Shown: in pieces, positions 18,396-64,000 of the stretch | Position numbering within the stretch: the stretch's first letter is position 1 | Layout of the letters: each line of letters starts with the position of its first letter | NCBI RefSeq assembly: GCF_012726195.1 | Contig: NZ_JAASAF010000002.1 | Location: 627,965 to 691,964 of the forward strand | DNA: 64,000 nucleotides | From: Rhodococcus sp. HNM0563 | GTDB lineage: Bacteria > Actinomycetota > Actinomycetes > Mycobacteriales > Mycobacteriaceae | Direction of reading: 5' to 3' | Made by a program: the position numbers and the translations under genes | Notes under the pieces: generated by a model | Databases searched by the model: none | The model's input: the letters and a program-made list of their open reading frames with translations, nothing else | What the model was told of the DNA's origin: nothing

Positions 18396-18410
18396 GAGAA
18401 TAACATGCTC
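18396..18410. promoter_or_regulatory. Regulon palindrome copy 1, GAGAAT-AAC-ATGCTC
   Basis: Eleven of 12 arm positions match GAGAAT-N3-ATTCTC. It lies in the 164-base divergent region between the crotonase and CoA ligase genes and could control both. A weaker ATTCTTG half-site sits 10 bases to its left. Confidence 0.6.
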
Positions 18411-20070: not shown

Positions 20071-20077
20071 TATTCTC
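20063..20077. promoter_or_regulatory. Regulon palindrome copy 2, perfect GAGAATA-G-TATTCTC
   Basis: A perfect 15-base palindrome with 7-base arms, the strongest copy of the shared operator. It overlaps the end of the CoA ligase gene and lies 25 bases upstream of the amidohydrolase ATG. Confidence 0.75.
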
Positions 20078-44762: not shown

Positions 44763-44798
44763 CAGAATGTCATTCCTGGTTCCAGAATCGTGATTCTT
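44763..44798. promoter_or_regulatory. Regulon palindrome copy 5, tandem pair
   Basis: Site one is CAGAAT-GTC-ATTCCT (44763-44777). Site two is CAGAAT-CGTG-ATTCTT (44783-44798), with perfect arms AGAATC/GATTCT. Their centres are about 20 bases apart, two helical turns, just upstream of the SDR start. Confidence 0.55.
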
Positions 44799-48536: not shown

Positions 48537-49550
48537 CTACCCGTGGGCCGGAGCCCGAAGAGCATCCGGTGTGAACATCGCCCGGCGCTCGTGCAGGAAC
48601 TCGTGCGGATAGCCGAGGCGAATCTTCGATGCCTCGTCGAGTCGCGCCAAGTGAGAGTCATCGAGTTCGACGTCCGATGCCGCCAAATTGTCGTTGATCT
48701 GGTCGACGGTACGTGCACCGATCGACAGCATAAGCCCTTGGCTGCGAACCCATGCGAGCGCGACCCGCGCGGGTGAGACACCGAGTTCGCCGGCGACCTC
48801 CCGCGTGACGGTGAGGATGCGCTGCACGGGCGCGGGCAACTTCGCGAAGGCCTCCTCCGACATGGGTCGAGCGAGGGTTCCGCGGCCGAGTGGACTCCAT
48901 GCAGAGACCTCGATCCCCAGTGCCCGCGCCATCGGAAGGAGTTCGCGCTCAGCAGTGCGCGCAGTGAGCGCGTACTCGACCTGCATCGTGCAGAAGGAGT
49001 TCCATCCACGTAGTTCGGCGATGGCAACGGACTGCGACACCACCCAGGCCGGCGTGTTCGACACCCCGATCGCGAGCACCTTTCCCGACCGCACCAGGTC
49101 ATCGAGAGCTCGCAGGGTCTCGTCCACGGGGGTGCACTGATCCCACGCATGGACCCACAGCAGATCGATGTAATCGGTGCCCAGTCGCCGAAGGCTCGTC
49201 TCGACGCTGCGGCGCAGGCTCTTCCGGTGGTTTCCGCCGGTATTGGGATCCGCGGAGTCGGTGGGGAAGGAGTACTTGGTGCTCACGACGATCGAGTCGC
49301 GTTCCGGTGCCACGAGCCGCCCGAGGATCTCCTCGCTCGACCCGTTCGTGTAGTTGTTCGCGGTGTCGACGAAGTTGCCGCCCGCTTCCCGGTAGGTCTC
49401 GTAGATCTTCCGGCTGGTCGATTCGTCGGTACCGAATCCCCATTCCGTACCGAACGTCATGGTGCCGAGACACAGGTCGCTCACTCGGATACCGGACCGC
49501 CCGAGAACACGCATGGGTATTCCGCTTCGATTCTGCTCAGGCATCGTCAT
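48537..49550 (-). CDS. Aldo/keto reductase
   Basis: A 337-residue AKR with a TIM-barrel pattern. The catalytic tetrad appears as D in FVDTANNY, Y in the same segment (NNYTNG), K in VVSTKYSF and H in LLWVHAWD. The C-terminal cofactor segment is LMLSIGARTVDQINDNLAA. It overlaps the end of the LuxC-like gene by 14 bases. It may reduce the aldehyde released by that enzyme to an alcohol using NADPH. Confidence 0.92.
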   Translation of the reverse strand: MTMPEQNRSGIPMRVLGRSGIRVSDLCLGTMTFGTEWGFGTDESTSRKIYETYREAGGNFVDTANNYTNGSSEEILGRLVAPERDSIVVSTKYSFPTDSADPNTGGNHRKSLRRSVETSLRRLGTDYIDLLWVHAWDQCTPVDETLRALDDLVRSGKVLAIGVSNTPAWVVSQSVAIAELRGWNSFCTMQVEYALTARTAERELLPMARALGIEVSAWSPLGRGTLARPMSEEAFAKLPAPVQRILTVTREVAGELGVSPARVALAWVRSQGLMLSIGARTVDQINDNLAASDVELDDSHLARLDEASKIRLGYPHEFLHERRAMFTPDALRAPAHG

Positions 49551-50946
49551 CAGCCACCCAGTTCACCATGCGGTGCAGCGGGTACATGCCGTCGTGGGGG
49601 TTGCCCATCGTGCCGCGCAATGCACCGCCGAGCTTGACGAGGCGCTGTACGCCGGCGGTGGCGAGATGATCGCGGATCTCGGCCTTGCGGTGAGGTGGGT
49701 ACACACCGACCGTCTGCGTCGCGACGGTCGCGTACGACGCAGCATCGCGGAGCTGCGCGATCGGAATGACATTGACTGTCTTGAAATTGGGATGGAAGTC
49801 GACCATCTCGGGAGAGCGGACGACGAGCCCGGTTCCGTCGAACTTGCCCCACACCCGGTAGTCGGGTTCGAGGTAGCGCATTCCTTCCACTGCTTCGCGG
49901 ATGTCTGCATCCGGCTTCGGGCCCACTGCGGAGGCGAAATCCCGGTCGACGCCGAGACGCTCGTGCAGCAGTGCGCAGAATCGGTCGACCTGGTCGACAT
50001 CGCCTTCCACACAGATGTGACGCGCTGCGAGGCATGCGTCCTGGTTGAAGATCGTGGCGTCGGCCGCCGCGAGTTCGGCGACCTCCCGCAGCGTCTCCTC
50101 CGACTCGAATGCTTCTCTGCCGATGACTGCCATCGAGACCTTGGGGTCGAACGAGATCAGGCTGAAGCCCGGCCCCGCATACTTCGCGGCGTTCTCGATC
50201 GCGGCGCCGCCGCCCCACGCAACGAGCTTGTCGAAGTACTGCGAGCGATACAGCACACCTTCGACCGATTCGTCGCCGCCGCGCCAGTAGACTGCGGAGA
50301 TCGATTTCAGCACCGGATGATCGGGCGCGATGTCCGACATCGTCCGCAGTACCGCGACCGTGGTGAACGGATCGGCCGACGGCATCTTGAACACGTTGAC
50401 GGCCTTGAGGAGTGCAGCATCAGCGATCGACGTCATGGCAGCGCTCGGTGAGTTGCCCGCGAGCATGTGGACCAATCGCGGCGGGAACGCGCGGATCTTG
50501 CTGACGTTGCCGTTGGGGTCGGTGTTCTCGACCCAGCCGTCGAGTACATCGAGACTTCCGAAGGTGCGCTCGAGGCGGAACTCGAGAGCCTCCTTCGTCA
50601 GGAACTGTCCCGGTCGACGGAACGTGTTCTCGATGATCCGGCGAGGCAACGCGCTGACCTGCAGCGTCATCTCGAGAGATTCCTGAAGATAGGGGTTCTT
50701 CTCCAGGGACAGCTGCCCGGCGGTCTCGACGAGGAAGTCGATGATCTCCGAGACCGGGACGTCGAAGGCGGGTCCCGGCTCGGTGCGCGGGACGAACAGC
50801 TCGTTGTACTCGATCTTGGGAGTCACGAAGGGGACTCCGAAATCGCGCGAGAGATACTCGTTGTCCTCGCCCCAGATCAACTTCCCGCGGACGAAATGCG
50901 GTACCTGGATCTTGGTGCGGGTGGGGGCAGGCGCAGTCGTGGTCAT
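49537..50946 (-). CDS. LuxC-like acyl-CoA/acyl-protein reductase
   Basis: A 469-residue member of the LuxC acyl reductase family, a branch of the aldehyde-dehydrogenase fold that reduces an enzyme-bound acyl group to aldehyde with NADPH. The likely nucleophile is C305 in IFNQDACLAARHI. Other family-like segments are PPRLVHMLAGNSPSAAM and WGGGAAIENAAKYAGPG. The ATG follows a GGGGAGTG ribosome site. It is five bases downstream of the LuxE-like gene. No luxA/luxB luciferase pair is present, so the role is metabolic, not light emission. Confidence 0.88.
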   Translation of the reverse strand: MTTTAPAPTRTKIQVPHFVRGKLIWGEDNEYLSRDFGVPFVTPKIEYNELFVPRTEPGPAFDVPVSEIIDFLVETAGQLSLEKNPYLQESLEMTLQVSALPRRIIENTFRRPGQFLTKEALEFRLERTFGSLDVLDGWVENTDPNGNVSKIRAFPPRLVHMLAGNSPSAAMTSIADAALLKAVNVFKMPSADPFTTVAVLRTMSDIAPDHPVLKSISAVYWRGGDESVEGVLYRSQYFDKLVAWGGGAAIENAAKYAGPGFSLISFDPKVSMAVIGREAFESEETLREVAELAAADATIFNQDACLAARHICVEGDVDQVDRFCALLHERLGVDRDFASAVGPKPDADIREAVEGMRYLEPDYRVWGKFDGTGLVVRSPEMVDFHPNFKTVNVIPIAQLRDAASYATVATQTVGVYPPHRKAEIRDHLATAGVQRLVKLGGALRGTMGNPHDGMYPLHRMVNWVADDDA

Positions 50947-50951
50947 GATGT

Positions 50952-52250
50952 TCACTCCCCGACGATTCCGCGGACGTATGCGTCCATCGTTCCGGCACAG
51001 GTGATCTTGTCGTCGTCTCCGAGGTCGGAGTAGCGCACGATGTTCGGCAGAACGGTCTCGCCGTCGCGCCCGCACGGGCAGCGCCCCTGATCCACGGTGA
51101 TCTTGTCACCCGAGATCGTGCCGCCCCAACGCCCGTCGACGGTGGTGTCGACGAATGCGGCCCGCCCTTCGACCAGGTTGCCCGATGCTTCGGCGAGTGC
51201 GTCGCCGTCCTTGTTCAGGACAAGGAGAACGATCTCCTCCGGCACGTGGTAGCGCCCCTCTTCCGGGCACTTGAACATGCGATTGTTGAGTTCCTGCATG
51301 GAGTAGTAGTGCAGGAAGCGTTCCGGAGCGATATTGAGCATCCGGTAGATCTGGTCCTGGTAGTCGTCGGGCAGGTTCGTGCCCTTGAGGCCACCGCCGC
51401 TGGTGAGACCGTTGATTCCGGTGATGTCGCCGTCCTTGACACCCCGTTCGCGGAGCACCTCGACGAGTCGGTACAGCTGCGGGAACTGCGAACTGAACAG
51501 GATGTTCTCGTTGCGTCGGGCCATGATCTGGTCGGCGTAGTGGTTCAGCTTCTGCTCCTGGAGCGCCGCACGCTCGGCTGCCTCTGCCTCGAACGACGCG
51601 ATGTCGTCGGGGGCGGCAGTGCCGTCGGCCATCGCGCGACGCATCGCCGACAACCGGGACAGGTAGCGATGGAACCCTTCGGGTGCGGGCCCGTCGAACA
51701 GGGGAAGCGCGTCGGGCCGGGAGAATGAATCGATGATCAGGTCGCGCACAGCGGCATGCTGGGTCTGCCCGGTGTCGGGCCCGACCGGGATGACGTGCCA
51801 TACCTTTTCGGGCGGCATTCCCAGCGATACGAAGCAATCGAGCAGGTTCTGCTTGTTGACGTCGAAGTCGCGGTAGGACTTGTTGAGGAACGAACCCTTT
51901 CCACTGGTTCCGCTCGAACTCGACACCATGTGGCCGGCCTTCTCCAGCGCACCGATCCAGCCGTCGACGTCGGTGACTTCGGAGACGTCGACGTCGTCGA
52001 GTCGGCGGGTGGACAGGGATCCCAGCCACCGATTCATCTGTTCCCACTTACCCTTGGCAATAAGTGTTTCCGGGTAGCTCTTGTAGGTGGTGTGGGGAAA
52101 GAGGAGCGGAACGATGTCCTCGCGGGAACGGATCTCGGTGATCCCCTGATCGTTCGCGCGCTGGGTCAGGACGGGAACTTGGTCCCGCCGTTCCTGGAAG
52201 TACGCGTTCAGCGTCCCGATGACGTCCTTCTGCATCGTCGCTTCTGTCAC
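50952..52250 (-). CDS. LuxE/PaaK-like acyl-activating protein
   Basis: A 432-residue protein related to acyl-protein synthetase LuxE and phenylacetate-CoA ligase-type enzymes. The nucleotide-binding loop is SSSSGTSGKGSFLNKS near residue 112, with TSGGGLKGTNLP and HYYSMQELNNRMFKCP further on, and a C-terminal GRCPCGRDGETVLP segment. It should activate an acid as acyl-adenylate and hand the acyl group to the LuxC-like partner. GTG start with GGAGG upstream. First gene of a six-gene operon and divergent from a TetR gene. Confidence 0.87.
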   Translation of the reverse strand: MTEATMQKDVIGTLNAYFQERRDQVPVLTQRANDQGITEIRSREDIVPLLFPHTTYKSYPETLIAKGKWEQMNRWLGSLSTRRLDDVDVSEVTDVDGWIGALEKAGHMVSSSSGTSGKGSFLNKSYRDFDVNKQNLLDCFVSLGMPPEKVWHVIPVGPDTGQTQHAAVRDLIIDSFSRPDALPLFDGPAPEGFHRYLSRLSAMRRAMADGTAAPDDIASFEAEAAERAALQEQKLNHYADQIMARRNENILFSSQFPQLYRLVEVLRERGVKDGDITGINGLTSGGGLKGTNLPDDYQDQIYRMLNIAPERFLHYYSMQELNNRMFKCPEEGRYHVPEEIVLLVLNKDGDALAEASGNLVEGRAAFVDTTVDGRWGGTISGDKITVDQGRCPCGRDGETVLPNIVRYSDLGDDDKITCAGTMDAYVRGIVGE

Positions 52251-53069: not shown

Positions 53070-53914
53070 GCCGCGATCTCGTCCAAGATCGGTAACACAA
53101 CATCGTCGTCCGCAGTCGGGACGTCGACGATCACCCGCTCGACAGGCATCTGCCGAAACCTGTCCAGCACATCGGCGAGGTCGGGGCGAAGCCCCTGCAG
53201 GACCGTCACCCGGATACTGTCCGGATCGCGGTCCACCCGCTCGAATTCGACAGCGAGTTGCAACAGATCTGCCTCGAGCGTGTCGACGGGATGATGCCCC
53301 ATGGGAATCCACCCATCCGCCCACTTCGCGATTCTGCGGAATCCGATCGGACCGGACCGCACTCCCAGCAGGAGCGGAGGGTGCGGGCGTTGCAGAGGTT
53401 TCGGCCACACCCTACTGGGCGACAACCGCACGTGCTTGCCGTCGTACGACGCTTCTTCCTCGGTCCAGAGGTTTTTCATCAGCGCGATCTTTTCTTCGAC
53501 CACCGCATACTTGTCGCGAGCGTCGAACCCATGATCTTCGAACTCGTCGTTGTTCCAGCCGAAACCGACGCCCAGCACGAGGCGACCACCCGACATGACA
53601 TCGAGCGTGGCCACAGCCTTTGCGTAGGAAATCGGGTCGTGCCCACCGGGAAGCGCCGTGCAGGTTCCAACGGTCAGGCCCGTCGCCGCAGAGACGAACG
53701 ACAAGCTCACGAGCGGGTCCCACAGGCGGAAATAACGGTCGGGTAGAACTCCGCCGCCGGGGAAGGGTGTTTCGCGGGCACTCGGAATATGTGAATGCTC
53801 CGGCACGAACAGTGATTCGAACCCACGTTCCTCCGCGGCACGCGCGAGGTCGACCAAGGGCATAGACGTATCGGTTCCGCCGTAGTGCAGCCCGACTCCC
53901 ATGGAGTCGGTCAT
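53060..53914 (-). CDS. Luciferase-like (LLM) F420/FMN-dependent oxidoreductase
   Basis: A 284-residue TIM-barrel protein of the bacterial-luciferase superfamily, probably the F420-dependent class common in actinomycetes. Segments are ARAAEERGFESLFVPEH, LSFVSAATGLTVGTCTALPGG, VATLDVMSGGRLVLGVGFGW and WADGWIPMG. The ATG overlaps the preceding SDR stop by four bases. It forms an operon VOC-SDR-LLM. It would oxidise or reduce a pathway intermediate using a deazaflavin or flavin cofactor. Confidence 0.92.
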   Translation of the reverse strand: MTDSMGVGLHYGGTDTSMPLVDLARAAEERGFESLFVPEHSHIPSARETPFPGGGVLPDRYFRLWDPLVSLSFVSAATGLTVGTCTALPGGHDPISYAKAVATLDVMSGGRLVLGVGFGWNNDEFEDHGFDARDKYAVVEEKIALMKNLWTEEEASYDGKHVRLSPSRVWPKPLQRPHPPLLLGVRSGPIGFRRIAKWADGWIPMGHHPVDTLEADLLQLAVEFERVDRDPDSIRVTVLQGLRPDLADVLDRFRQMPVERVIVDVPTADDDVVLPILDEIAAYL

Positions 53915-54747
53915 GTCGCGGACTCTTCGCGTCGGGCAGCAATTGCTGCCATGACACCACCGTCGACCAGGATGTCGATGCCGTTGACGAAGCTCGCGCC
54001 GTCCGACAGCAGGAACGCCACGACCGTCGCGAGTTCGTCGGCCTGGCCGAGTCGGCCGAGCGGCGTCGCGCGTTGCATGTCGGCGATGCGCGGATTGCTC
54101 GCCGCTTCCTGGCGTCCCTGCGGAGTGTCGATCAGCCCCGGTGACACGGAGTTCGCCCGCGCCCCCACCCGCCCGAGGCGGATGGCCTCGGCACGCGCGA
54201 ATCGCTGTACCCCATGCTTTGCCCACGAGTAGGCGATCCCGGGTTGCTCGATCGATTCGCCGACGGTCTCCCGGAGTTTGTCCAGGAACTCCCCGTCGAG
54301 CGGATCGTCCAGGACCGCACCCAGCTCCGACCCCGGATCCATCCGGCCGACCAACGGTGCCATCGACGCGAAATAGACCATGGCGGTACCGGCTGTCGCC
54401 AGCGGACGGAGCGCCTCCGCCAGCAACGCCGTACCGACGAGATCGACCGACACGATCTTCCGCCAGTCGGCCATGGTCGGCGAGATCCCCGCCGCGTGAG
54501 CGACCGAGCGGAGCGTTCCGAGTTCGTCCGCGCGGTCGGCGAGCCTGCCCAGCGCATCGGCGTCACCGACATCGGCGGCGAACGGTTCGACCACCGTCGA
54601 GTCCGACGACAGCTGCGCTGCCGCCTCCTTCGCGGAGGTTTCGTCGATGTCGACGAGCAGCATTGTGTCGACGGTGCCGACCATCCGCTGCGCGCATGTG
54701 AACCCCATACCCCGGCCACCACCGGTCACGATTCCTACGTTGCCCAT
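53911..54747 (-). CDS. Short-chain dehydrogenase/reductase
   Basis: A 278-residue SDR. Cofactor motif TGGGRGMGFTCAQRMV, NAG-equivalent HAAGISP, catalytic serine region YFASMAPLVG and pair in AYSWAKHGVQRF. A long insert between the serine and tyrosine regions (DPGSELGAVLDDPLDGEFLD) is unlike most classical SDRs. The ATG has a GAGAGGGA ribosome site. Located between the VOC and luciferase-family genes. Confidence 0.91.
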   Translation of the reverse strand: MGNVGIVTGGGRGMGFTCAQRMVGTVDTMLLVDIDETSAKEAAAQLSSDSTVVEPFAADVGDADALGRLADRADELGTLRSVAHAAGISPTMADWRKIVSVDLVGTALLAEALRPLATAGTAMVYFASMAPLVGRMDPGSELGAVLDDPLDGEFLDKLRETVGESIEQPGIAYSWAKHGVQRFARAEAIRLGRVGARANSVSPGLIDTPQGRQEAASNPRIADMQRATPLGRLGQADELATVVAFLLSDGASFVNGIDILVDGGVMAAIAARREESAT

Positions 54748-54790: not shown

Positions 54791-55234
54791 TCACTGCGGC
54801 GCCATCCAGCACTGCGACATCCCCGGTTCCGCTGCGCGGGTCACGAATTCGAGGAGGAGTCCGGATGGGCTTCGCATGAAAGCGAAGAAGAGGCTGCCGT
54901 CGGCCGCTCGTCGGGTTGCTTCCGTGCTGTAGCCCTGGGCGGCGAACTCGTCGCGATCGGCATCGACGTCGTCGGACCAGTAGCCGAGGTGGTGGATACC
55001 CGGGACCGCCTCCCACAGGGGTGCCGACACACTCCGGACGAGTTCGATGCGCGGTTCTGTGATCGAGAACGCGCATCTCAGGTCGACCACATGATCGCCG
55101 GTGGGCAGCGTCACCGCCACTTCCCCACCGACCTCGGGGCCCCATTCGTAACCGAAGAGCTGGGAGAACTCTGCCTTGGCCGCGACCGGATCATCGGTCA
55201 CGACACCCATGTGGAATAGGTCTTGGGCTTTCAA
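54791..55234 (-). CDS. VOC-superfamily protein
   Basis: A protein of about 147 residues with glyoxalase/dioxygenase-fold halves: DLFHMGVVTDDPVAAKAEFSQLFG at the start and GIHHLGYWSDDVDADRDEFAA in the second half, ending SPSGLLLEFVTR. The likely metal ligands are H in FHMGVV, H in IHHLGY and E in LLEFV. The TTG start is preferred since AAAGG lies eight bases upstream; a TTG ten codons earlier lacks one. Divergent from the ACAD gene, sharing the regulon palindrome region. It resembles epimerase/lyase-type VOC proteins, as in methylmalonyl-CoA epimerase, though no function is proven. Confidence 0.85.
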   Translation of the reverse strand: MKAQDLFHMGVVTDDPVAAKAEFSQLFGYEWGPEVGGEVAVTLPTGDHVVDLRCAFSITEPRIELVRSVSAPLWEAVPGIHHLGYWSDDVDADRDEFAAQGYSTEATRRAADGSLFFAFMRSPSGLLLEFVTRAAEPGMSQCWMAPQ

Positions 55235-55281
55235 TTCGGCGCCTTTCGTCGCGGGCTGTTCCAAACCGACTTCAGTCGTGT

Positions 55282-55324
55282 AAGAATAGCATTCTGAAAA
55301 CTACGAATTAAGATTCTTGGAATC
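55282..55324. promoter_or_regulatory. Regulon palindrome copy 6, tandem pair
   Basis: Site one is AAGAAT-AGC-ATTCTG (55282-55296) with perfect AGAAT/ATTCT arms. Site two, CGAAT-TAAG-ATTCT (55304-55317), repeats the geometry of the second site at 44783. GATTC-TTG-GAATC (55312-55324) overlaps it. The region lies between the divergent VOC and ACAD genes. Confidence 0.6.
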
Positions 55325-55340: not shown

Positions 55341-56642
55341 ATGGCGTGGGACTTCGAAACCGACCCCGAATACCAGGAAAAACTGGACTGGGCCGACGCC
55401 TTCGTGCGCGACGAGGTCGAGCCGCTGGACCTGGTGTGGGAACACGAGCAGTTCGTACCCCTCGACGGCCTGCGACGCAAGGCCATCGATCCGCTCAAGC
55501 AACGGGTTCGCAAACAGGGCCTGTGGGCCACACACCTCGGCCCCGAGCTCGGCGGGCAGGGCTACGGACAGCTCAAACTCGCACTGCTCAACGAGATCCT
55601 CGGACGCTCGTCGTGGGCACCGATCGTCTTCGGATGCCAGGCACCCGACACCGGCAACGCCGAGATCATCGCGCACTACGGCACACCCGAGCAGAAGAGG
55701 AAGTACCTGCAGCCACTGCTCGACGGCGAACTCTTCTCCACCTACTCGATGACCGAGCCGCAAGGCGGCGCCGACGTCGCGCAGTTCCGCACGCGAGCGG
55801 TCAAGGACGGCACCGACTGGGTCATCAACGGCTGGAAGTACTTCTCCTCCAACGCCAAGACAGCCTCGTTCCTGATCGTGATGGCCGTGACCGACACCGA
55901 GGTACCGGTGCACAAGGGCATGTCGATGTTCCTCGTGCCGGCCGACACCCCGGGCATCGAGATCGTGCGTAACGTCGGCCTGTACGGCGAACCGATGAAT
56001 GGTGGCAGCCACGCGCTCATCCACTACCAGGACGTGCGGGTACCCGCCGACGCCCTTCTCGGCGGCGAAGGTCAGGCGTTCGCCGTCGCCCAGACCCGTC
56101 TCGGTGGCGGCCGCATCCACCACGCGATGCGGACGATCGGACTCGCCCAGAAGGCCCTCGACATGATGTGCGAGCGGGCGCTGAGTCGCGAGACCGCAGG
56201 CAGCCGACTCGCCGACAAACAGACGATCCAGGGTTACATCGCCGACTCCTACGCGCAGCTGACGCAGTTCCGCCTATTCGTGCTCCATACCGCGTGGAAG
56301 ATCGACAAGTACAACGACTACAAGAAGCTCCGCAAGGACATCGCTACGGCAAAGATCGTGATGCCGACCGTGTTGCACGACATCGCCTGGCGCGCAATGC
56401 AGGTCCATGGAGCACTCGGTGTCACCAACGAGATGCCGTTCTTCAAGATGATCCACGGCGCGGCCGTGATGGGTCTGGCCGACGGCCCGACCGAGGTCCA
56501 CAAGACGACCGTCGCAAAACAGGTCCTGCGCGACTACAGCGCAACCGACGACCTGTGGCCCACGCAGTGGCTTCCGCGCAAGCAGGACGAAGCCCGCGCC
56601 AAATACGCCGAATACCTCGAACTGGAAGTGGGGAACCTGTGA
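55341..56642 (+). CDS. Acyl-CoA dehydrogenase of the ACAD10/11-LvaC type
   Basis: A 433-residue acyl-CoA dehydrogenase, longer than usual. Visible are YSMTEPQGGADVAQFRTRA near residue 135, INGWKYFSSNAKTA, and a C-terminal signature GLADGPTEVHKTTVAKQVL around D381. That signature resembles ACAD10/ACAD11 and related bacterial enzymes rather than the IYGGTSE type. The next gene, a phosphotransferase-fold kinase, overlaps its stop (GTGA). In ACAD11 and in Pseudomonas LvaC, this ACAD acts on a 4-phosphoacyl-CoA to remove phosphate. AGAGGAG ribosome site; regulon palindromes upstream. Confidence 0.92.
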   Translation: MAWDFETDPEYQEKLDWADAFVRDEVEPLDLVWEHEQFVPLDGLRRKAIDPLKQRVRKQGLWATHLGPELGGQGYGQLKLALLNEILGRSSWAPIVFGCQAPDTGNAEIIAHYGTPEQKRKYLQPLLDGELFSTYSMTEPQGGADVAQFRTRAVKDGTDWVINGWKYFSSNAKTASFLIVMAVTDTEVPVHKGMSMFLVPADTPGIEIVRNVGLYGEPMNGGSHALIHYQDVRVPADALLGGEGQAFAVAQTRLGGGRIHHAMRTIGLAQKALDMMCERALSRETAGSRLADKQTIQGYIADSYAQLTQFRLFVLHTAWKIDKYNDYKKLRKDIATAKIVMPTVLHDIAWRAMQVHGALGVTNEMPFFKMIHGAAVMGLADGPTEVHKTTVAKQVLRDYSATDDLWPTQWLPRKQDEARAKYAEYLELEVGNL

Positions 56643-57661
56643 TCGACACCGATCGACTCGCCGCATGGATGGACGATCAGGGCCTGCCCGGCAAGGGGGC
56701 ACCGCTCGAAGCCAAGTACCTTTCCGGCGGCACCCAGAACGAGATCTACAAACTCGACCGCGACGGCTTCACCTGCGTCATCCGGATCCCGCCCACCGGT
56801 GCGCCCGCCGACCGCGACAGCGGAATCATTCGTGAATGGCGGATCATCCAGGCACTCGACGGCACAGACGTCCCCCATACCGCTGCGGTCGCAGCCTGTG
56901 AGGACACTTCGGTTCTGGGCCGTTCGTTCTACCTCATGGGATACGTCGACGGCTGGTCGCCGATGGATCAACACGGCGTGTGGCCCGAGCCGTACAACAG
57001 CGATCTGTCCACACGTCCGGGTCTCGCGTACCAGCTCGCCGAGGGCATCGCGCTGCTGTCCAAGGTCGACTGGAAGGCGCAGGGCCTGCATGACCTCGGG
57101 CGTCCCGACGGATTCCACGACCGTCAGGTCGACCGCTGGACCCGCTTCTTCGACCGCATCAAAGCCCGCGAGCTCGACGGAATCGATGTCGCCACCAAGT
57201 GGCTGCAGGCGCATCGCCCACTCGACTACGTCCCGGGTCTGATGCACGGCGACTACCAATTCGCGAACGTGATGTTCGAGCACGGCGCACCCGCGAAGCT
57301 CGCTGCCCTCGTCGACTGGGAGATGGGCACCGTCGGCGATCCGAAGCTCGACCTCGGCTGGATGCTGATGAACTGGCCCGAGGACATGACCGTCGAAGGC
57401 GCAGGCCAGGGCGGCTACGCCGATCTTCGAGGAATGCCCGACCGCGCAAAGATGGTCCAGCACTACTCGGAGGTTTCCGGCCGTCAGGTCGACGACCTCG
57501 ATTACTACCTGATCCTCGCCAAGTGGAAGCTCGCCATCATTCTCGAGCAGGGCTACCAGCGCGCCGGTGACGATCCCAAGCTGCAGTCATTCGGTCCGGT
57601 GGTCCTCAGCGCGATGCGTGAGGCCGCCGAGCTCGCCGAGTCGACCGACTACAAGGGGTGA
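56639..57661 (+). CDS. APH-fold kinase, partner of the ACAD (LvaA-like)
   Basis: A 340-residue protein kinase-like phosphotransferase. The N-lobe contains YLSGGTQNEIYKL, the catalytic loop is H203-G-D205-YQFAN210 and the metal-binding segment is D226-W-E228-MGTVGDPKLDLGW. Such APH-family domains are fused to ACAD in human ACAD10/11 and separate in LvaA, where they phosphorylate the 4-hydroxyl group of an acyl-CoA. GTG start overlaps the ACAD stop, suggesting a fixed 1:1 partnership. The assignment to 4-hydroxyacyl-CoA is an inference from pairing and motif, not shown. Confidence 0.9.
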   Translation: MIDTDRLAAWMDDQGLPGKGAPLEAKYLSGGTQNEIYKLDRDGFTCVIRIPPTGAPADRDSGIIREWRIIQALDGTDVPHTAAVAACEDTSVLGRSFYLMGYVDGWSPMDQHGVWPEPYNSDLSTRPGLAYQLAEGIALLSKVDWKAQGLHDLGRPDGFHDRQVDRWTRFFDRIKARELDGIDVATKWLQAHRPLDYVPGLMHGDYQFANVMFEHGAPAKLAALVDWEMGTVGDPKLDLGWMLMNWPEDMTVEGAGQGGYADLRGMPDRAKMVQHYSEVSGRQVDDLDYYLILAKWKLAIILEQGYQRAGDDPKLQSFGPVVLSAMREAAELAESTDYKG

Positions 57662-57668
57662 CAGCGAG

Positions 57669-58436
57669 ATGAACGAACTCGTACAAGAGCAGCACGGTGC
57701 AGTTCTCCTCCTGAGGCTGAACCGCCCCGAGGCACGTAATGCGCTTACCAGCGCGCTGATCAACGGGATCGGCGCGGCGGTCGAAGAAGCCGAGTCCGAC
57801 CCAGAGATCCGCGCGATCGTCCTCACCGGCACCGGTGACCGGGCGTTCTGCTCCGGCATGGACCTGAGGGCGTTCGCCAACGGCGACAAGATCGGATTGG
57901 ACTCCGGCCCCGGCGCCTCCTACGCACGGTTCGCCAGGGGCGAGACCGACATCCCCGTGATCGGTGCCGCCAACGGCACCGCGATCGGCGGCGGGCTCGA
58001 ACTCCTTCTCGGAAGTGATCTCATCGTCGCCTCGTCGGCCGCGAAATTCGGTCTTCCCGAGGTGAAGCGGGGTCTGTTCCCGGCCGGCGGCGGGACGAAT
58101 CTCGGGACGAGGATCCCGCGGGCAGCCGCCATGGAACTGACGCTCACCGGCGATCTGATCACCGCGCAGCGAGGCTACGAACTGGGCCTGATCAACGAGG
58201 TCGTCGAACCGGAGGCAGTGCAGTCGGCTGCGCTCGCGCTCGCCGAACGCATTGCGGCGAACGCCCCACTGGGCCTTGCCGCGGTCAAGGAACTCGTCCG
58301 GCTCGCACAATCCGATCCGGCTCGGGCAGACGAGAGGCTGGGACACTGGCAGAGTGTCGTCTTCTCCAGCGACGACGCCAAGGAAGGCGCATCCGCGTTC
58401 GTCGAGAAGCGCGCACCGGTCTGGCGGGGGCGGTAA
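57669..58436 (+). CDS. Enoyl-CoA hydratase
   Basis: A 255-residue crotonase with a full catalytic set: oxyanion segments GTGDRAFCSGMDLRAF and AANGTAIGGGLELLLGSDL, first glutamate in FGLPEVKRGLFPAGGG and second in AAMELTLTGDLITA. It follows the kinase by seven bases. It would hydrate the enoyl-CoA formed after phosphate elimination, returning it to normal beta-oxidation. Confidence 0.94.
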   Translation: MNELVQEQHGAVLLLRLNRPEARNALTSALINGIGAAVEEAESDPEIRAIVLTGTGDRAFCSGMDLRAFANGDKIGLDSGPGASYARFARGETDIPVIGAANGTAIGGGLELLLGSDLIVASSAAKFGLPEVKRGLFPAGGGTNLGTRIPRAAAMELTLTGDLITAQRGYELGLINEVVEPEAVQSAALALAERIAANAPLGLAAVKELVRLAQSDPARADERLGHWQSVVFSSDDAKEGASAFVEKRAPVWRGR

Positions 58437-58441
58437 CGGGT

Positions 58442-59413
58442 ATGCGCGCTGCGATCTGCTCGGAATACGGGGAGCCCGAGGTGGTCCGGATCGACGAGAT
58501 CGCCTCGCCCTCCCTCGAACCGGGTCATGTGCGGGTCCGGGTCGGCGCTGCCGCGGTCAACTTTCCCGATGTGCTGGTGGTCGCCGACAAATACCAGATC
58601 AGCGTGCCCACTCCGTTCGTCCCCGGTAGCGAGTTCGCAGGGCTCGTGGAGGAGGTCGCCGACGACGTCGGCGACCTCGCGGTCGGCGATCGGGTGAGCG
58701 GCACCGGCATCGTCGGCGCCTTCGCGGAGGAGATCGCAGCAAAGGCCGTGTCGCTGAGACGGATACCCGACGGCGTCGACGACCACACCGCAGCAGCGTT
58801 CGGCGTCGCACATCGCACTGCGTATCACACGCTTCGATCGGTGGCCCGGATCCGGCCCGGCGAAACACTCGTCGTGCTGGGGGCCGGCGGCGGCGTCGGA
58901 CTGGCCGCGGTCCAGCTAGGAGCGGTTCTGGGAGCGACCGTTGTCGCTGTGGCCTCGTCGGCCGACAAGCTCGAGGTCGCAGCGTCCTACGGTGCGAAGC
59001 AGCTCGTCGATCATCGCGCGGGTGAACTTCGCGCACTGCTGAAGGACGTCGCTCGCGAGGGGGCCGACGTCGTCGTCGATCCGGTGGGCGGCGACCTGTC
59101 CGAACCGGCTCTCCGGAGTCTGCGAAGAGGCGGACGTTTCATCACCGTCGGATACGCCTCGGGAACCATCCCTCGAATACCGCTCAATCTCGTTCTGGTG
59201 AAGGGTATTCGGATCCAGGGCTTCCAGTTCCAGGACCTGGACCCGGACGAGTTCCGCCGCAACGAGAACGAACTGGTCGATCTTCTCGTCTCAGGGCGAG
59301 CCGTGCCGCACATCGGTGCGATCTATTCGCTCGACGACGCCGTCGGTGCCCTTCGTCTGGTAGGTGACGGGCAGGCCATCGGCAAGGTGGTCATCGACCT
59401 TCAGCAGGCCTGA
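58442..59413 (+). CDS. Zinc-free medium-chain reductase (quinone oxidoreductase-like)
   Basis: A 323-residue NADPH:quinone-oxidoreductase/enoyl reductase-like MDR protein. Segments are VRVGAAAVNFPDVLVVADKYQ, PFVPGSEFAGLVEEV, the nucleotide motif VLGAGGGVGLAAVQLGAVLG and IRIQGFQFQDLDPDEFRRN. No structural zinc cysteines are present. It closes the ACAD-kinase-hydratase operon and may reduce a double bond in an acyl-CoA or a side product. Confidence 0.92.
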   Translation: MRAAICSEYGEPEVVRIDEIASPSLEPGHVRVRVGAAAVNFPDVLVVADKYQISVPTPFVPGSEFAGLVEEVADDVGDLAVGDRVSGTGIVGAFAEEIAAKAVSLRRIPDGVDDHTAAAFGVAHRTAYHTLRSVARIRPGETLVVLGAGGGVGLAAVQLGAVLGATVVAVASSADKLEVAASYGAKQLVDHRAGELRALLKDVAREGADVVVDPVGGDLSEPALRSLRRGGRFITVGYASGTIPRIPLNLVLVKGIRIQGFQFQDLDPDEFRRNENELVDLLVSGRAVPHIGAIYSLDDAVGALRLVGDGQAIGKVVIDLQQA

Positions 59414-59505: not shown

Positions 59506-60093
59506 TCAGACCGACGTGAGGTGACCCGACTTGGATGAGGTGAAACCGGAGGTCCGGAAGGACTCGATGGGTGCGATCACAGGTTCGCGGACCGCCGCTG
59601 CGACGAGTGCATGCCGCTTGAATACCTGTGCAGCCCTGCTCATACAGTATTCCGACGCCGAGAACCTGGCATCGATCTCTGCCGGGAGCTCATCGCCCCA
59701 CATGCTGAACTTCGTCGATCCGCGATCGAGAAGCCGGTCCAGACCTGCACGGATGCGCTCGTCGGACGAGTAGAGTTCGGCCGATGCCACCAGCGCTTCA
59801 GGAACCATGCCGTGCTCGGTCCCCAATACCGAGTCGAGATCGATGACTCGGGCCCCGAGGATCTCGAGCGGGCGGATGTCTTGATGCTCCCGGGCCAGGA
59901 CCGTGACTTCCCATCCCGCGAGAACCTGGTCGTAGAGCCACCCTCCGACGTTGCGCACGGTATCGACCACACGTGGCGCGACGATGACGATGCGGTGTCT
60001 CAGACTGTGCTGCTGGGCATGAGCTGTTGCTCGAGCGACTGTGTGAAGTCCTCGAAGATCTCGGCTATCGGGAGCGAACGATCGAGCAGCCAT
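59506..60093 (-). CDS. Unknown small protein with Rossmann-like N-terminus
   Basis: A protein of up to 195 residues with no domain I recognise. A hydrophobic strand and helix (RIVIVAPRVVDTVRNVGGWLYDQVLAGWEVTVL) followed by EILGARVIDLDSVL suggests an alpha/beta fold; ELYSSDERIRAGLDRLLDRG is likely helical. The start is unclear. ATG at 60093 gives a 94-base out-of-frame overlap with the TetR gene, while an unconventional CTG at the TetR stop (CTGA) would start directly at the conserved part, and a later GTG would cut the first strand. It appears to form a pair with the TetR gene. Confidence 0.6.
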   Translation of the reverse strand: MAARSFAPDSRDLRGLHTVARATAHAQQHSLRHRIVIVAPRVVDTVRNVGGWLYDQVLAGWEVTVLAREHQDIRPLEILGARVIDLDSVLGTEHGMVPEALVASAELYSSDERIRAGLDRLLDRGSTKFSMWGDELPAEIDARFSASEYCMSRAAQVFKRHALVAAAVREPVIAPIESFRTSGFTSSKSGHLTSV

Positions 60094-60599
60094 GAGGTTT
60101 CCATTCCGTTGAGGAAAGCGACGATTTCCACCGCTTTGACGGCTGGGTTCACATCCATCCGATACCGCCCGGCGTGTTGACCACGTCGGATACCCGCCTC
60201 GATTGTGTCGATCGCGGCGCGGTGTCGAACGAGTAGGCGATCGTGCAGTGGAGCATCCGGCTCCAGGTTCTCGATCAGGAGTACAGCAAACATCCCGACC
60301 AGTTCAGGGGACTTCTCGAAACGCAAGTACAGTCTCCTGATCTGCTCGAGTGGATCTCCCGAACGATCAGCACGTGCATCATCGTCTGCATCCCGTGCGT
60401 CGAGCACGGCATGCAGCAACTGGTCCTTGGACTGGAAGTGATGCAGCAGACCCGCGGGCGTGATGCCCACGGCCCGTGCGATCTGAGCGAGGCTCGTGCT
60501 GCGCCACCCGTTCCTCGCCAACAACCGCTGAGCTGCACTGAGTATCAGCTCTCTGCGGTCCTCACCCTTGGCGAGAAGCGTGTCGTACGCCCTTTGCAC
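60000..60599 (-). CDS. TetR-family transcriptional regulator
   Basis: A 199-residue TetR regulator with helix-turn-helix RSTSLAQIARAVGITPAGLLHHF and a C-terminal domain of normal length. GTG at 60599 with GGAGAGAGG upstream is preferred; GTG at 60617 is possible. A 22-base palindrome lies 25 bases upstream, a strong sign of autoregulation. Neighbouring minus-strand genes are a thiolase, CoA-transferase and ACAD, which it may control together with itself. Confidence 0.91.
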   Translation of the reverse strand: MQRAYDTLLAKGEDRRELILSAAQRLLARNGWRSTSLAQIARAVGITPAGLLHHFQSKDQLLHAVLDARDADDDARADRSGDPLEQIRRLYLRFEKSPELVGMFAVLLIENLEPDAPLHDRLLVRHRAAIDTIEAGIRRGQHAGRYRMDVNPAVKAVEIVAFLNGMETSWLLDRSLPIAEIFEDFTQSLEQQLMPSSTV

Positions 60600-60712: not shown

Positions 60713-61861
60713 CTATGTGCCGAGGAGTTCGACAACAGTGGCATTCGCCGTGCCGCCGCCTTCGCACATGGTCTGGAGACCGTATCGAATTCCGTTGTCG
60801 CGCATGTGATGAATCATCCGAGTCATCAACACGGCACCCGAACCTCCGAGCGGATGCCCGAGGGAGATCGCCCCTCCGAGCGGGTTGAGCAGCTCCGGAT
60901 CGGCGCCGGTCTCGGCCAGCCACGCCAATGGAACCGACGCGAACGCCTCATTGACTTCGAACACTCCGACATCCTTCAGGCCGATCCCCGCCTTCACGAG
61001 AGCCTTCTCGGTAGCCGGGATCGGACCGGTGAGCATGAGCACCGGATCGGCGCCCGCCACCGCGCCCGCCCGATATCGGACGAGCGGGGTCAAGCCCAAC
61101 TCACGAGCCTTCTCCGGTGTGGTCACGAGCAGTGCCGCAGCACCGTCGGAGATCTGCGACGAGTTTCCGGCGTGGATCACACCGTCGTCGGCGAAAGCGG
61201 GCTTCAGACCGGCGAGTTTCTCGACCGTGGTACCGCGACGAATCCCTTCGTCGACACTGACCGTGCCCTCGTCGGTGACCACCGGCACGATCTGCGCCTC
61301 GAATGCCCCGCGGTCCTGCGCTGCCGCGGCACGCTCGTGCGAGATCGCCGAGTACTCGTCGAGCCGAGTGCGCGACAATCCCCATTTCTGGGCGATCTTC
61401 TCCGCGGAAATTCCCTGGTTGAATGCGAATCCGTCGTAGCGCGCCAGCGCACGAGGCCCGTACGGTTGCCCGGAGGCACGCGCCGAGCCGAGCGGGACAC
61501 GGCTCATGACCTCGACGCCGCCGGCGACAACAACGTCCTGCTGACCCGACATCACGGCCTGGGCTGCGAAATCGATCGACTGCTGGCTCGACCCGCACGC
61601 CCGGTTGATGGTGGTACCCGGGATGGACTCCGGCCATCCGGCAGCGAGTACCGAATAGCGGCCGATATTGCTCGACTGGTCGCCCACCTGCGATACGCAA
61701 CCCCAGATGACGTCGTCGACGACCCCGGGATCGATGCCGGTGCGCTCGACCAGCGCCTCGAGTACGAGCGCCGACAGGTCTGCAGGGTGCACACCGGCCA
61801 GCCCACCGTTGCGCTTGCCTACCGGGGTGCGGACAGCCGCAGCGACGACCACTTCACGCAT
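60713..61861 (-). CDS. Thiolase (acetyl-CoA acyltransferase)
   Basis: A 382-residue thiolase with all three catalytic elements: nucleophile C89 in NRACGSSQQSID, histidine in GGAISLGHPLGGSGA and second cysteine in MCEGGGTANATV. It starts RSS AGGAGAA then ATG, MREVVVAAAVRTPVGK. It fits the final thiolytic step of beta-oxidation for the products of the ACAD and CoA-transferase upstream in the same run. Confidence 0.95.
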   Translation of the reverse strand: MREVVVAAAVRTPVGKRNGGLAGVHPADLSALVLEALVERTGIDPGVVDDVIWGCVSQVGDQSSNIGRYSVLAAGWPESIPGTTINRACGSSQQSIDFAAQAVMSGQQDVVVAGGVEVMSRVPLGSARASGQPYGPRALARYDGFAFNQGISAEKIAQKWGLSRTRLDEYSAISHERAAAAQDRGAFEAQIVPVVTDEGTVSVDEGIRRGTTVEKLAGLKPAFADDGVIHAGNSSQISDGAAALLVTTPEKARELGLTPLVRYRAGAVAGADPVLMLTGPIPATEKALVKAGIGLKDVGVFEVNEAFASVPLAWLAETGADPELLNPLGGAISLGHPLGGSGAVLMTRMIHHMRDNGIRYGLQTMCEGGGTANATVVELLGT

Positions 61862-61915: not shown

Positions 61916-63121
61916 TCACGGCACCGATCCGATCGCGCCCTGCTCGCGAAGGCGATCGATCTCGTCGGGGCGGAAACCGAAGTCCGCGAGGATCAAGTCG
62001 GTGTGTTCGCCCAAGCCGGGTACGGGTGCCATCGGCGGCTCGTAGCCTTCGATCACCGGTGGCGGAAGAATTGCCTCGACGGGTCCGTTCGGGCTTGCAA
62101 CCGACCGCCAACGATTGCGGGCGGCCAGTTGCGGATGATCGATGACGTCACGCGGCGTGTTGTAACGCGAGTTGCCGATACCCGCCTCGTCGGCGATCTT
62201 CTGTACATGGTCGAGCGGGTGCTGTGCGCACCACGCCGAGATGGCCTCGTCGAGTTCGGCGCGGTGCTCGCACCGTCCCGTGTTGGTCGAGAACCGCTGG
62301 TCGTCGGCGAGATCGTCGCGCCCGATGATCTCGCGCGCCAGACGCTGCCACTCACGATCATTGGTCGTACCGAGCACCACGATCCGGTCGTCCGCGGTGC
62401 GATACGACCCGTACGGCGCGACGGCAGGCGAGCTCATCCCCAGTGGTTGCTGTTCGACACCGGAGTAGCGGGTGTACGTCAACGGGTAGCCCATGATGTC
62501 CGCCATCGTGTCGAACAGGCTCACCGACACCTTCGACAGGCCGCCGCCGCGGCCCCGGTTTCGTTCCCGGCCGCACAGCAACGCGAGAATCGACAATGCC
62601 GAATACAGCCCGGTGCTGATATCCGCGACCGGCGGCCCCGGCTTCGCGGGCTGCCCAGGGAAGCCGGTGACGGAGCACGCCCCCGATTCGGCCTGAATGA
62701 GCAGGTCGTACGCGCGCTTGTGCGACAGTGGACCGTCGGGACCGTATCCGTCGATCTCGACCGCGATCAGGTCGGGATACCGCCCGGCCAGATCCTCCGG
62801 TGAGAGCCCGAGCCGCGTCATGGCGCCCGGTGCGAGGTTCGACACGAGGGCGTCCGCGCGCGCCAGCAGAGCGTGGAGCGCCCCGAGTCCGCCCTCGGTC
62901 TTCAGGTCGAGGGTGATCGATTCCTTGCCGCGGTTGGCCCAGACGAAGTGCGCCGCCATTCCGTTGACGACATCGTCGTAGTCGCGCGCGAAATCGCCGC
63001 CCTTGGGATTCTCGACCTTGATCACACGCGCACCGAAGTCGGCCAGGACGCGGGTGCACATGGGCGCGGAGACCGCCTGTTCGAGGGTCACCACGGTGAC
63101 CCCGGCGAGCGGGGCCTCCAT
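61916..63121 (-). CDS. CaiB/BaiF-family CoA-transferase
   Basis: A 401-residue family III CoA-transferase. N-terminal VTLEQAVSAPMCTRVLADFG and ARVIKVENPKGGDFARDYD, with NRGKESITLDLKTEGG and PPVADISTGLYSALSILALL further on, match the family. Start and the preceding ACAD stop share one base (TGATG). It would transfer CoA onto a substrate acid or act as an acyl-CoA racemase, supplying substrate for the neighbouring ACAD and thiolase. Confidence 0.93.
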   Translation of the reverse strand: MEAPLAGVTVVTLEQAVSAPMCTRVLADFGARVIKVENPKGGDFARDYDDVVNGMAAHFVWANRGKESITLDLKTEGGLGALHALLARADALVSNLAPGAMTRLGLSPEDLAGRYPDLIAVEIDGYGPDGPLSHKRAYDLLIQAESGACSVTGFPGQPAKPGPPVADISTGLYSALSILALLCGRERNRGRGGGLSKVSVSLFDTMADIMGYPLTYTRYSGVEQQPLGMSSPAVAPYGSYRTADDRIVVLGTTNDREWQRLAREIIGRDDLADDQRFSTNTGRCEHRAELDEAISAWCAQHPLDHVQKIADEAGIGNSRYNTPRDVIDHPQLAARNRWRSVASPNGPVEAILPPPVIEGYEPPMAPVPGLGEHTDLILADFGFRPDEIDRLREQGAIGSVP

Positions 63122-64000
63122 CAGTAACTCCTCGGCAGTCCGAGGGTGTGGGACCCGAGGTAGTTCAGGATCATCTCCTGGCTGACCGGGGCTATCCGCA
63201 TCACGCGTGCCTCACGGAAGTACCGCGACACGTTGTACTCCTCGGAGTAGCCCATTCCGCCGTGGGTCTGGAGCGCTCGATCGGCCGCAGCGAAACCGGC
63301 TTCCGCACAGAGATATTTGGCGGTGTTGGCCTCACGACCGCACGGCTTGCCGTTGTCGTAGAGCCAGGTGGCCTTACGCAGGACGAGTTCGGCCGCGTCG
63401 AGGTGCGCAAGCGCATCGGCAAGAGGGAACTGGATGCCCTGGTTCATTCCGATGGGACGTCCGAACACTTCACGCTCGTTGCCGTACTGCACGGCTTTCT
63501 CCAGCGCGACACGACCGATGCCGAGGGCTTCGGACGCAATCAGCATCCGCTCGGGGTTGAGGCCGTCGAGCAGGTACTTGAACCCTTGTCCCTCTTCACC
63601 GACGCGGTCCTCGACGGGGACCACGAGGTTGTCGATGAACAGTTCGTTGGAGGTGACCGCATTGCGTCCCATTTTCTTGATGGGCCGGATGTCGATCTTG
63701 CTGCGGTCGAGGTCGGTGAGAAAGAGCGTCATTCCGTCGGTCTTCTTCTCGACCTCGTCGTAGCGCTGGGTGCGGGTCAGGAGGAGAATCTTCTCCGATT
63801 CGACAGCCTTGGAAATCCACACCTTGCGGCCGTTGACGATGTACTTGTCGCCGTCGCGCTTCGCGAACGTGGTGATGCGCGAGGTGTCGAGGCCGGCACC
63901 CGGCTCGGTCACGCCGAAGCAGACGTGCAGGTCACCGTTGACGATGCGGGGCAGTGTGCGCGCCTTCATCTCGTCCGTACCGTGCTTGACGACGGGCTGC
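63121..64000 (-). CDS. Acyl-CoA dehydrogenase, N-terminus beyond the window
   Basis: The C-terminal 292 residues of an acyl-CoA dehydrogenase; the frame stays open to the window edge. Visible are FGVTEPGAGLDTSRITTFA, VNGRKVWISKAVESEKILL, YGNEREVFGRPIGMNQGIQF, LQTHGGMGYSEEYNVSRYFREARV and the end QEMILNYLGSHTLGLPRSY. It is coupled to the CoA-transferase downstream. An ATG at 63969 is internal, not the start, since the frame continues upstream with coherent sequence. Confidence 0.9.
   Translation of the reverse strand, partial: QPVVKHGTDEMKARTLPRIVNGDLHVCFGVTEPGAGLDTSRITTFAKRDGDKYIVNGRKVWISKAVESEKILLLTRTQRYDEVEKKTDGMTLFLTDLDRSKIDIRPIKKMGRNAVTSNELFIDNLVVPVEDRVGEEGQGFKYLLDGLNPERMLIASEALGIGRVALEKAVQYGNEREVFGRPIGMNQGIQFPLADALAHLDAAELVLRKATWLYDNGKPCGREANTAKYLCAEAGFAAADRALQTHGGMGYSEEYNVSRYFREARVMRIAPVSQEMILNYLGSHTLGLPRSY

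Follow-up and report, generated by a model that had tools for sequence, protein, structure and literature searches.

The 64,000-nucleotide stretch of Rhodococcus sp. HNM0563 analysed here (the window) belongs to contig C12 of the 5.54 Mb genome of a soil-type actinobacterium. On its plus strand it carries four genes arranged head to tail, encoding an acyl-CoA dehydrogenase (ACAD), an APH-fold kinase, a crotonase-type enoyl-CoA hydratase and an MDR-type reductase (Table 1). The GTG start codon of the kinase overlaps the stop codon of the ACAD in a shared GTGA, and the MDR gene starts 5 bp past the end of the hydratase gene. Pfam cut-offs were exceeded by acyl-CoA dehydrogenase domains in the ACAD, by APH in the kinase (101 bits) and by ECH_1 in the crotonase (185 bits). 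The MDR assignment likewise has Pfam support. An earlier note on this DNA had located the first three genes correctly, had reported the GTGA overlap and an ADGPTEVH-type signature in the ACAD, which is present as LADGPTEVH, and had proposed that ACAD, kinase and hydratase form a 4-hydroxyacyl-CoA phosphorylation-elimination module; the MDR gene was overlooked there. Overall, the ACAD and the kinase are quite probably a split bacterial form of ACAD10/11, that is, a predicted pair for phosphorylation of a 4-hydroxyacyl-CoA and elimination of the phosphate.

In mouse ACAD11, D753 is the catalytic base, R631 places the substrate and R626, H634 and R637 hold the phosphate (PMC12440821). These residues correspond to D381, R258, R253, H261 and R264 of the window ACAD, respectively, and D381, within LADGPTEVH, is the catalytic Asp that replaces the usual Glu. 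Twelve orthologues share all five with the window ACAD, and an alignment of 22 rows showed no variation at these positions. The HCMR motif of the phosphate cluster of ACAD11 reads HAMR in the window ACAD, as in 4hr3. The full set was found in none of six ordinary ACADs, five of them from the genome of the window (5ol2 chain C, window 4430-5587, and loci L049, L017, L018 and L024). Control rows L015, L016 and L021, minus-strand matches with a meaningless reading, were left out of this count and of the ACAD tree. The ACADs of L146 and L149 also lacked the ACAD11 residues. The proline said to widen the pocket (P463 in human ACAD11) is proline in the window ACAD and the 12 orthologues, and serine, glutamine or alanine in some other ACAD11-like rows (L040, L041, L043, L044 and L047).

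Phylogenetic analysis separated the window ACAD from ordinary ACADs with a support of 99/99 and grouped it (95/92) with a neighbouring clade that contains ACAD11, 4hr3 and three other ACADs. The subfamily of the window ACAD, which includes plasmid relatives (L036-L039) and a paralogue (L042), was supported at 100/100. The best PDB sequence matches were ACAD11 (8v3u and 8v3v), 4hr3 and 2wbi, and the folds nearest to the AlphaFold model were 4hr3, 2wbi and 8v3u, of which 2wbi and 8v3u are ACAD11. The ACAD10/11-type assignment made in the earlier note thus agreed with every active-site comparison with ACAD11, with the tree and with the predicted structure.

The kinase of mouse ACAD11 uses D220 and N225, and R86 and R176 lie near the CoA (PMC12440821, whose numbering is one above that of the PDB chains). 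D205, N210 and R162 of the window kinase correspond to D220, N225 and R176; the three were retained in the window kinase and its 12 orthologues and were invariant in 22 rows. The Arg equivalent to R176 was absent from all eight kinases encoded next to DUF6285 proteins. The kinase agreed with ACAD11 at every residue compared but one, R86, for which no match by number was obtained. In the kinase tree the window kinase grouped with the ACAD11 kinase, 3dxp and others at 100/100 against the eight DUF6285-linked kinases; the order inside this group was poorly resolved, with 3dxp pairing with the ACAD11 kinase. The best PDB sequence matches were 3dxp, 9o56 and ACAD11, and the AlphaFold model was closest to 3dxp, followed by the 25-hydroxy steroid kinase 9fsg. 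Grouping with unrelated aminoglycoside or choline kinases, which the earlier note had named as evidence to the contrary, was not seen in these trees, which held no choline kinase; in a second tree, with two other APH proteins of the genome included and rows L053, L062, L065 and L038 left out, the deep forks collapsed.

Kinase relatives were collected by a pattern scan of a collection with one genome per species. A total of 513 were found, of which the best 80 (71-83% identical) were kept, and all locus counts out of 80 refer to this set, with genes called by script. Of these loci, 79 came from Rhodococcus, Mycobacterium/Mycolicibacterium, Nocardia, Gordonia, Williamsia, Aldersonia, the Frankia group, Actinomadura, Actinophytocola and mycobacterial bins, and the remaining one from an Acidimicrobiia bin. 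The closest named relatives among them were from Rhodococcus zopfii, R. phenolicus and Rhodococcus sp. CH91 (83%), and within the genus the kinase was present at E ≤ 1e-100 in 11 of 18 genomes, the own genome counted. An ACAD lay directly 5' of the kinase on the same strand in 71/80 loci, and the stop and start codons overlapped by 4 bp in 51 of 72 pairs, the window included, so the adjacency is not due to chance. The MDR gene was found in 72/80 loci, on the same strand in all 72, and together with the ACAD in 66. The crotonase was present in 30/80 loci, and in none of the 39 loci with a TetR gene of family F09. From the module of the earlier note the ACAD-kinase pair was thus retained and the hydratase was not a fixed part; ACAD-kinase-(ECH)-MDR describes the unit better.

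Nine loci lack the ACAD. In four of them (L069, L083, L099 and L105) the contig breaks off at the kinase or close to it, and the other five (L066, L075, L106, L108 and L122) are real exceptions. A related ACAD was found elsewhere in all five of these genomes, with best matches of 79, 79, 79, 67 and 65% identity; the two lowest, from Actinomadura, did not stand out in identity from other copies that those genomes carry. In the three Mycolicibacterium loci L066, L075 and L106, families F31 and F27 precede the kinase in place of the ACAD, and each genome has its 79% identical ACAD elsewhere. Sampling was also extended to 296 Actinomycetota genomes, with at most five candidates scored per genome, and the ACAD was found at E ≤ 1e-140 in 15 of them, the window's own included. 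From this sample, all 21 listed loci outside the genome of the window were examined together with flanks of about 5 kb, or less where the contig ended sooner. The MDR gene was present in four of the nine loci with a same-strand kinase within 0.9 kb, and both loci with an ACAD of at least 80% identity have the kinase and the MDR gene.

A palindrome, AGAATnnnATTCT, ends 45 bp 5' of the ACAD start. Allowing one mismatch, 31 of the 32 loci without TetR F09, the window included, had it no farther than 120 bp from the ACAD start; shuffling 200 times gave 0.155 such loci on average. Where TetR F09 lies upstream (39 loci), the palindrome never preceded the ACAD and was found within 300 bp before the F09 gene in six. 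The window holds four such sites against 0.29 expected. In the whole genome there were six exact AGAATnnnATTCT sites, all between called genes and several preceding acyl-CoA catabolic genes. Tolerating one mismatch raised the number to 47, of which 26 were intergenic and 21 lay within called genes, so many of the one-mismatch sites are probably chance occurrences. A control with the reversed pattern gave 0 and 1 sites, a comparison that is unfair in coding DNA because the pattern holds stop-codon-like triplets, which are rare in genes. A total of 33 genes adjoin intergenic sites, and the 19 put to Pfam included five AMP-binding ligases, two ACADs, two SDRs and two luciferase-like oxidoreductases, and one each of amidohydrolase, TauD, cyclase, CMD, SnoaL-like protein, ferredoxin-type reductase, TetR and solute-binding protein. 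From these gene types, the operon seems to be part of a CoA-catabolic regulon under the predicted operator. Four TetR families without close kinship to each other flank the loci, and for the TetR that the divergent L050 operon encodes, the best relative in the genome of the window reached only 36%. No fitting description of the motif was found in the literature searched for it.

Genes on the opposite strand were common to many of the loci. Besides the TetR regulator, thiolase and class III CoA-transferase (counts in Table 1), they included a protein without Pfam match (59/80), two ordinary ACADs (46/80 and 38/80), a crotonase (36/80) and an SDR (31/80), which together make up the greater part of a beta-oxidation set. 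Of these genes, the window has the TetR, the unmatched protein, the thiolase, the CoA-transferase and one ordinary ACAD. The unmatched protein (59506-59970, minus strand) is conserved, has no Pfam or NCBIfam match, adjoins the TetR gene and is convergent with the MDR gene. The VOC gene that the earlier note had placed next to the unit was confirmed; as a stand-in for the small LvaB protein of levulinate catabolism it was rejected, since it matches a glyoxalase family and is present in only 15/80 loci. Further away (49537-52235, minus strand), a LuxC-type acyl-CoA reductase lies beside a protein that has no Pfam match over a cut-off and was judged LuxE-like by eye; this block also includes aldo-keto-reductase-like and aldehyde-dehydrogenase-like genes, again named by eye, and is kept in 9/80 loci.

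Table 1. Features of the gene unit, its surroundings and the associated palindrome (window positions unless a C label is given)
Feature	Position	Strand	Basis
ACAD10/11-type acyl-CoA dehydrogenase, predicted 4-phosphoacyl-CoA phosphate-eliminating enzyme	55341..56642	+	ATG start; Pfam, residues, tree, PDB matches
APH-fold kinase, predicted 4-hydroxyacyl-CoA kinase	56639..57661	+	GTG start; Pfam APH, residues, tree, PDB matches
Crotonase-type enoyl-CoA hydratase, optional downstream member	57669..58436	+	ECH_1
MDR-type quinone oxidoreductase / enoyl reductase-like protein, final gene of unit	58442..59413	+	conservation, PDB matches
Operator-like palindrome AGAATAGCATTCT, divergent ACAD/VOC promoter region	55283..55295	.	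conservation near ACAD start
VOC protein (Glyoxalase_4), divergent neighbour, not core	54791..55264	-	Pfam; 15/80 loci
SDR, divergent neighbour	53911..54747	-	Pfam; 14/80 loci
TetR regulator, linked neighbour	60000..60557	-	TetR_N; 56/80 loci
Thiolase, linked neighbour	60713..61861	-	Pfam; 47/80 loci
Class III CoA-transferase, linked neighbour	61916..63121	-	Pfam; 46/80 loci
Second, ordinary-type acyl-CoA dehydrogenase, cut by window edge	63121..63999	-	Pfam; 38/80 loci; without ACAD11 residues (L049)
Palindrome sites in window	55283-55295, 20064-20076, 18397-18409, 44764-44776		
Palindrome sites elsewhere in genome	C4:5622, C4:117825, C8:50944, C12:692937		

The same genome combines ACAD11-like ACADs with kinases of the group at four further sites: C12:592460-598350 (L042), C33:265324-268215 (L043), C50:92812-94848 (L044) and C7:37170-39247 (L045). 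The ACAD and kinase genes of L042 are on opposite strands, 3.7 kb apart, and lie 90 kb from the window pair; MDR genes adjoin the L042 and L043 pairs. Related kinases and ACADs were also found on large plasmids of Streptomyces, Rhodococcus and Sphingomonas (L036-L039 and L041), with SDR genes near each and a quinone-oxidoreductase-type gene beside the pair in the Rhodococcus and Sphingomonas records. The window and L036-L039 rows cluster in both trees, with L042 near them in both.

Read together, the residues, clades and co-occurrence argue best for phosphorylation and elimination of a 4-hydroxyacyl-CoA, as the earlier note had suggested. The chemistry is known from the published relatives, and by analogy with them the window proteins would act alike, the acid on which they act being likewise suggested by analogy; a lactone or a gamma-hydroxylated chain, named in the earlier note, might be its source. 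The kinase would transfer the gamma-phosphate of ATP onto the 4-hydroxyl of a 4-hydroxyacyl-CoA to give a 4-phosphoacyl-CoA. In the ACAD, D381 would then take the C2 proton, FAD would borrow the C3 hydride, phosphate would leave C4 and the hydride would return; both steps are proposed with fair confidence. The product would be a 2-enoyl-CoA, formed without net oxidation, which the crotonase, where present, would hydrate, and neighbouring dehydrogenases and the thiolase would complete the cycle. In the crotonase, GGGLE and LPEVKRG align to GGTE and LPEVKRG of 3r9t. Probably, an acid would in this way be stripped of its C4 hydroxyl at the cost of ATP and become burnable by ordinary fat breakdown. 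The MDR protein matched 4eye, 1yb5, 1wly and 1zsy in the PDB and resembles quinone oxidoreductases, 2-haloacrylate reductase and mitochondrial 2-enoyl thioester reductase. Our guess is that it probably acts ahead of the kinase, for instance on an enone, which it would reduce, together with an SDR, so that the 4-hydroxyl is made. The neighbouring SDR could produce this hydroxyl from a 4-oxo group, and the class III CoA-transferase is a possible activating step.

Several points weigh against this assignment. The window kinase and ACAD are just 27% and 40% identical to the respective parts of mouse ACAD11, and both AlphaFold models are of only middling confidence (pLDDT 72.9 and 71.9). No NCBIfam family exceeded its cut-off for either protein, and the sole match of the kinase was capreomycin phosphotransferase with 31 of 390 bits, far below the cut-off. 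The CoA-binding R86 named in PMC12440821 has no match by number in the kinase alignment; the Arg preceding the alpha-C Glu is kept (R65 in the window), but its count in ACAD11 is 84. When the two other APH proteins of the genome were added, both had very long branches and the deep forks of the kinase tree collapsed. The kinase of plasmid pJE1 (L041) lies beside the L042 kinase, yet its ACAD is in the ACAD11 clade, and from this mismatch partners were exchanged at least once in the wider family. Finally, only nine of the 21 sampled subfamily ACADs have a same-strand kinase within 0.9 kb, one of them just 27% identical. The ACAD subfamily is therefore not always kinase-linked, and a tight operon is a trait of the clade to which the window genes belong.

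Three other explanations were weighed. In the first, the hydroxyl that the kinase targets is not the one at C4 of a chain acyl-CoA. It could, for instance, be a tertiary alcohol or a ring alcohol on a terpenoid or steroid acid, much as for 25-hydroxy steroid kinase (25-HSK), and the ACAD would then eliminate the phosphate. The second rank of 9fsg among structural neighbours of the kinase model and the linkage to P450 (29/80 loci) and amidohydrolase genes (22/80) are in line with this, as is the shared logic of ATP-dependent dehydration, which 25-HSK performs via a phosphoester in sterol breakdown (PMC8449060). However, the closer match is 3dxp, the partner of the ACAD11 kinase in the tree, with a sequence score of 162 bits against only 37.7 bits for 25-HSK, and no candidate lyase gene is reported near 25-HSK in PMC8449060, in contrast to the ACAD11-type partner at most of the loci here. 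We consider a target other than C4 unlikely.

In the second, the genes form a levulinate operon of the lva type for a short 4-oxo acid. Pseudomonas putida LvaA, LvaB and LvaC convert 4-hydroxyvaleryl-CoA onward via 4-phosphovaleryl-CoA (PMC12440821, PMC11342911 and PMC6692424), LvaB being a 12 kDa protein that binds LvaA (PMC6692424), and PMC6692424, with reference to Rand et al., places lvaABCD homologues in Alpha-, Beta- and Gammaproteobacteria. A kinase and an ACAD with an SDR and a CoA-transferase nearby would fit such an operon. The gene order differs, however, and the unit contains neither an acyl-CoA ligase nor an SDR. The DUF6285 family, to which we take LvaB to belong, had no match in the genome of the window, and so the earlier note's remark that an LvaB-like small protein is missing held for the whole genome under this family assignment. 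The profile matched in 20 of 246 Actinomycetota genomes. At all 12 of the DUF6285 loci listed, an APH kinase lies no more than about 1.5 kb away and shares 22-36% identity with the window kinase over the matched part, and the eight such kinases in the tree form a clade separate from the latter. The absence of LvaB is itself no bar to the chemistry, since according to PMC6692424 an lvaB homologue was not found in the P. citronellolis cluster. From the earlier comparison with LvaA/LvaC, the predicted chemistry was kept and the genetic layout was not, and a levulinate operon appears rather improbable.

The third, an ordinary beta-oxidation ACAD that adjoins an unrelated APH-fold kinase by accident, would agree with ACAD domains that are the same as in ordinary ACADs, with 65 ACAD-like matches in the genome, which make chance neighbours possible, and with the 12 of 21 sampled ACAD relatives without a close same-strand kinase, but it is very improbable in view of an Asp where Glu is usual and an R/H/R phosphate cluster, which the six ordinary ACADs lack, and of the conserved adjacency and overlap.

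Beyond the predicted 4-hydroxyacyl-CoA pair, a wider proposal is put forward tentatively, and we regard it as doubtful. The unit may be a self-contained, LvaB-free gamma-deoxygenation cassette of Actinomycetota with a near-fixed MDR ene-reductase, in which a 4-oxo-2-enoyl (or other enone) acid would be reduced, phosphorylated and dephosphorylated by one unit. Instead of linear 4-hydroxy fatty acids it might serve branched, cyclic or terpenoid acids, and the operator in front of it would also precede ligase and ACAD operons at other places in the genome. A link of ACAD10 and ACAD11 to the catabolism of 4-hydroxy acids was published in 2024 and 2025. The actinobacterial subfamily, at 80 loci, has the two predicted activities on separate coupled proteins and no LvaB, and would offer a simple system for studying how the phosphorylated intermediate is handed from kinase to ACAD and what the MDR partner does. 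If the pair acts as predicted, mycobacterial, nocardial and rhodococcal genes otherwise named just 'phosphotransferase' and 'acyl-CoA dehydrogenase' would constitute one catabolic step.

Compared with known systems, the actinobacterial pair is a subfamily of a known kind; no ACAD10/11-type pair from actinobacteria was found described in the literature searched. Mammalian ACAD11 (PDB 8v3u, 8v3v and 2wbi) and ACAD10 share with it the pairing of a kinase with an ACAD, and ACAD11 additionally shares the five ACAD active-site residues, the kinase Asp and Asn, one CoA-binding Arg and a neighbouring ACAD clade. The likeness to ACAD10 rests on published descriptions (its mechanism is proposed in PMC11342911, and the chemistry of relatives is also treated in PMC12440821), whereas the sequence comparison covered ACAD11. 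The window system differs from ACAD11 in being two genes with the ACAD first, in forming a separate subfamily and in having an MDR gene and often an ECH gene in the unit. The nearest solved single-domain relatives are the kinases 3dxp (Ralstonia eutropha JMP134; 34% identity) and 9o56 (31%) and the ACAD 4hr3 (Mycobacterium abscessus; 39%). 25-HSK has a similar APH-like fold and a similar ATP-dependent dehydration through a phosphoester, but its substrate is a free steroid alcohol and its sequence match is far weaker. The lva system of P. putida also has split kinase and ACAD genes, a likeness taken from the description of LvaA and LvaC. By its gene names the kinase comes first there, followed by LvaB and the ACAD, and the SDR and the ligase belong to the same operon, whereas the window unit reads ACAD-kinase-ECH-MDR.

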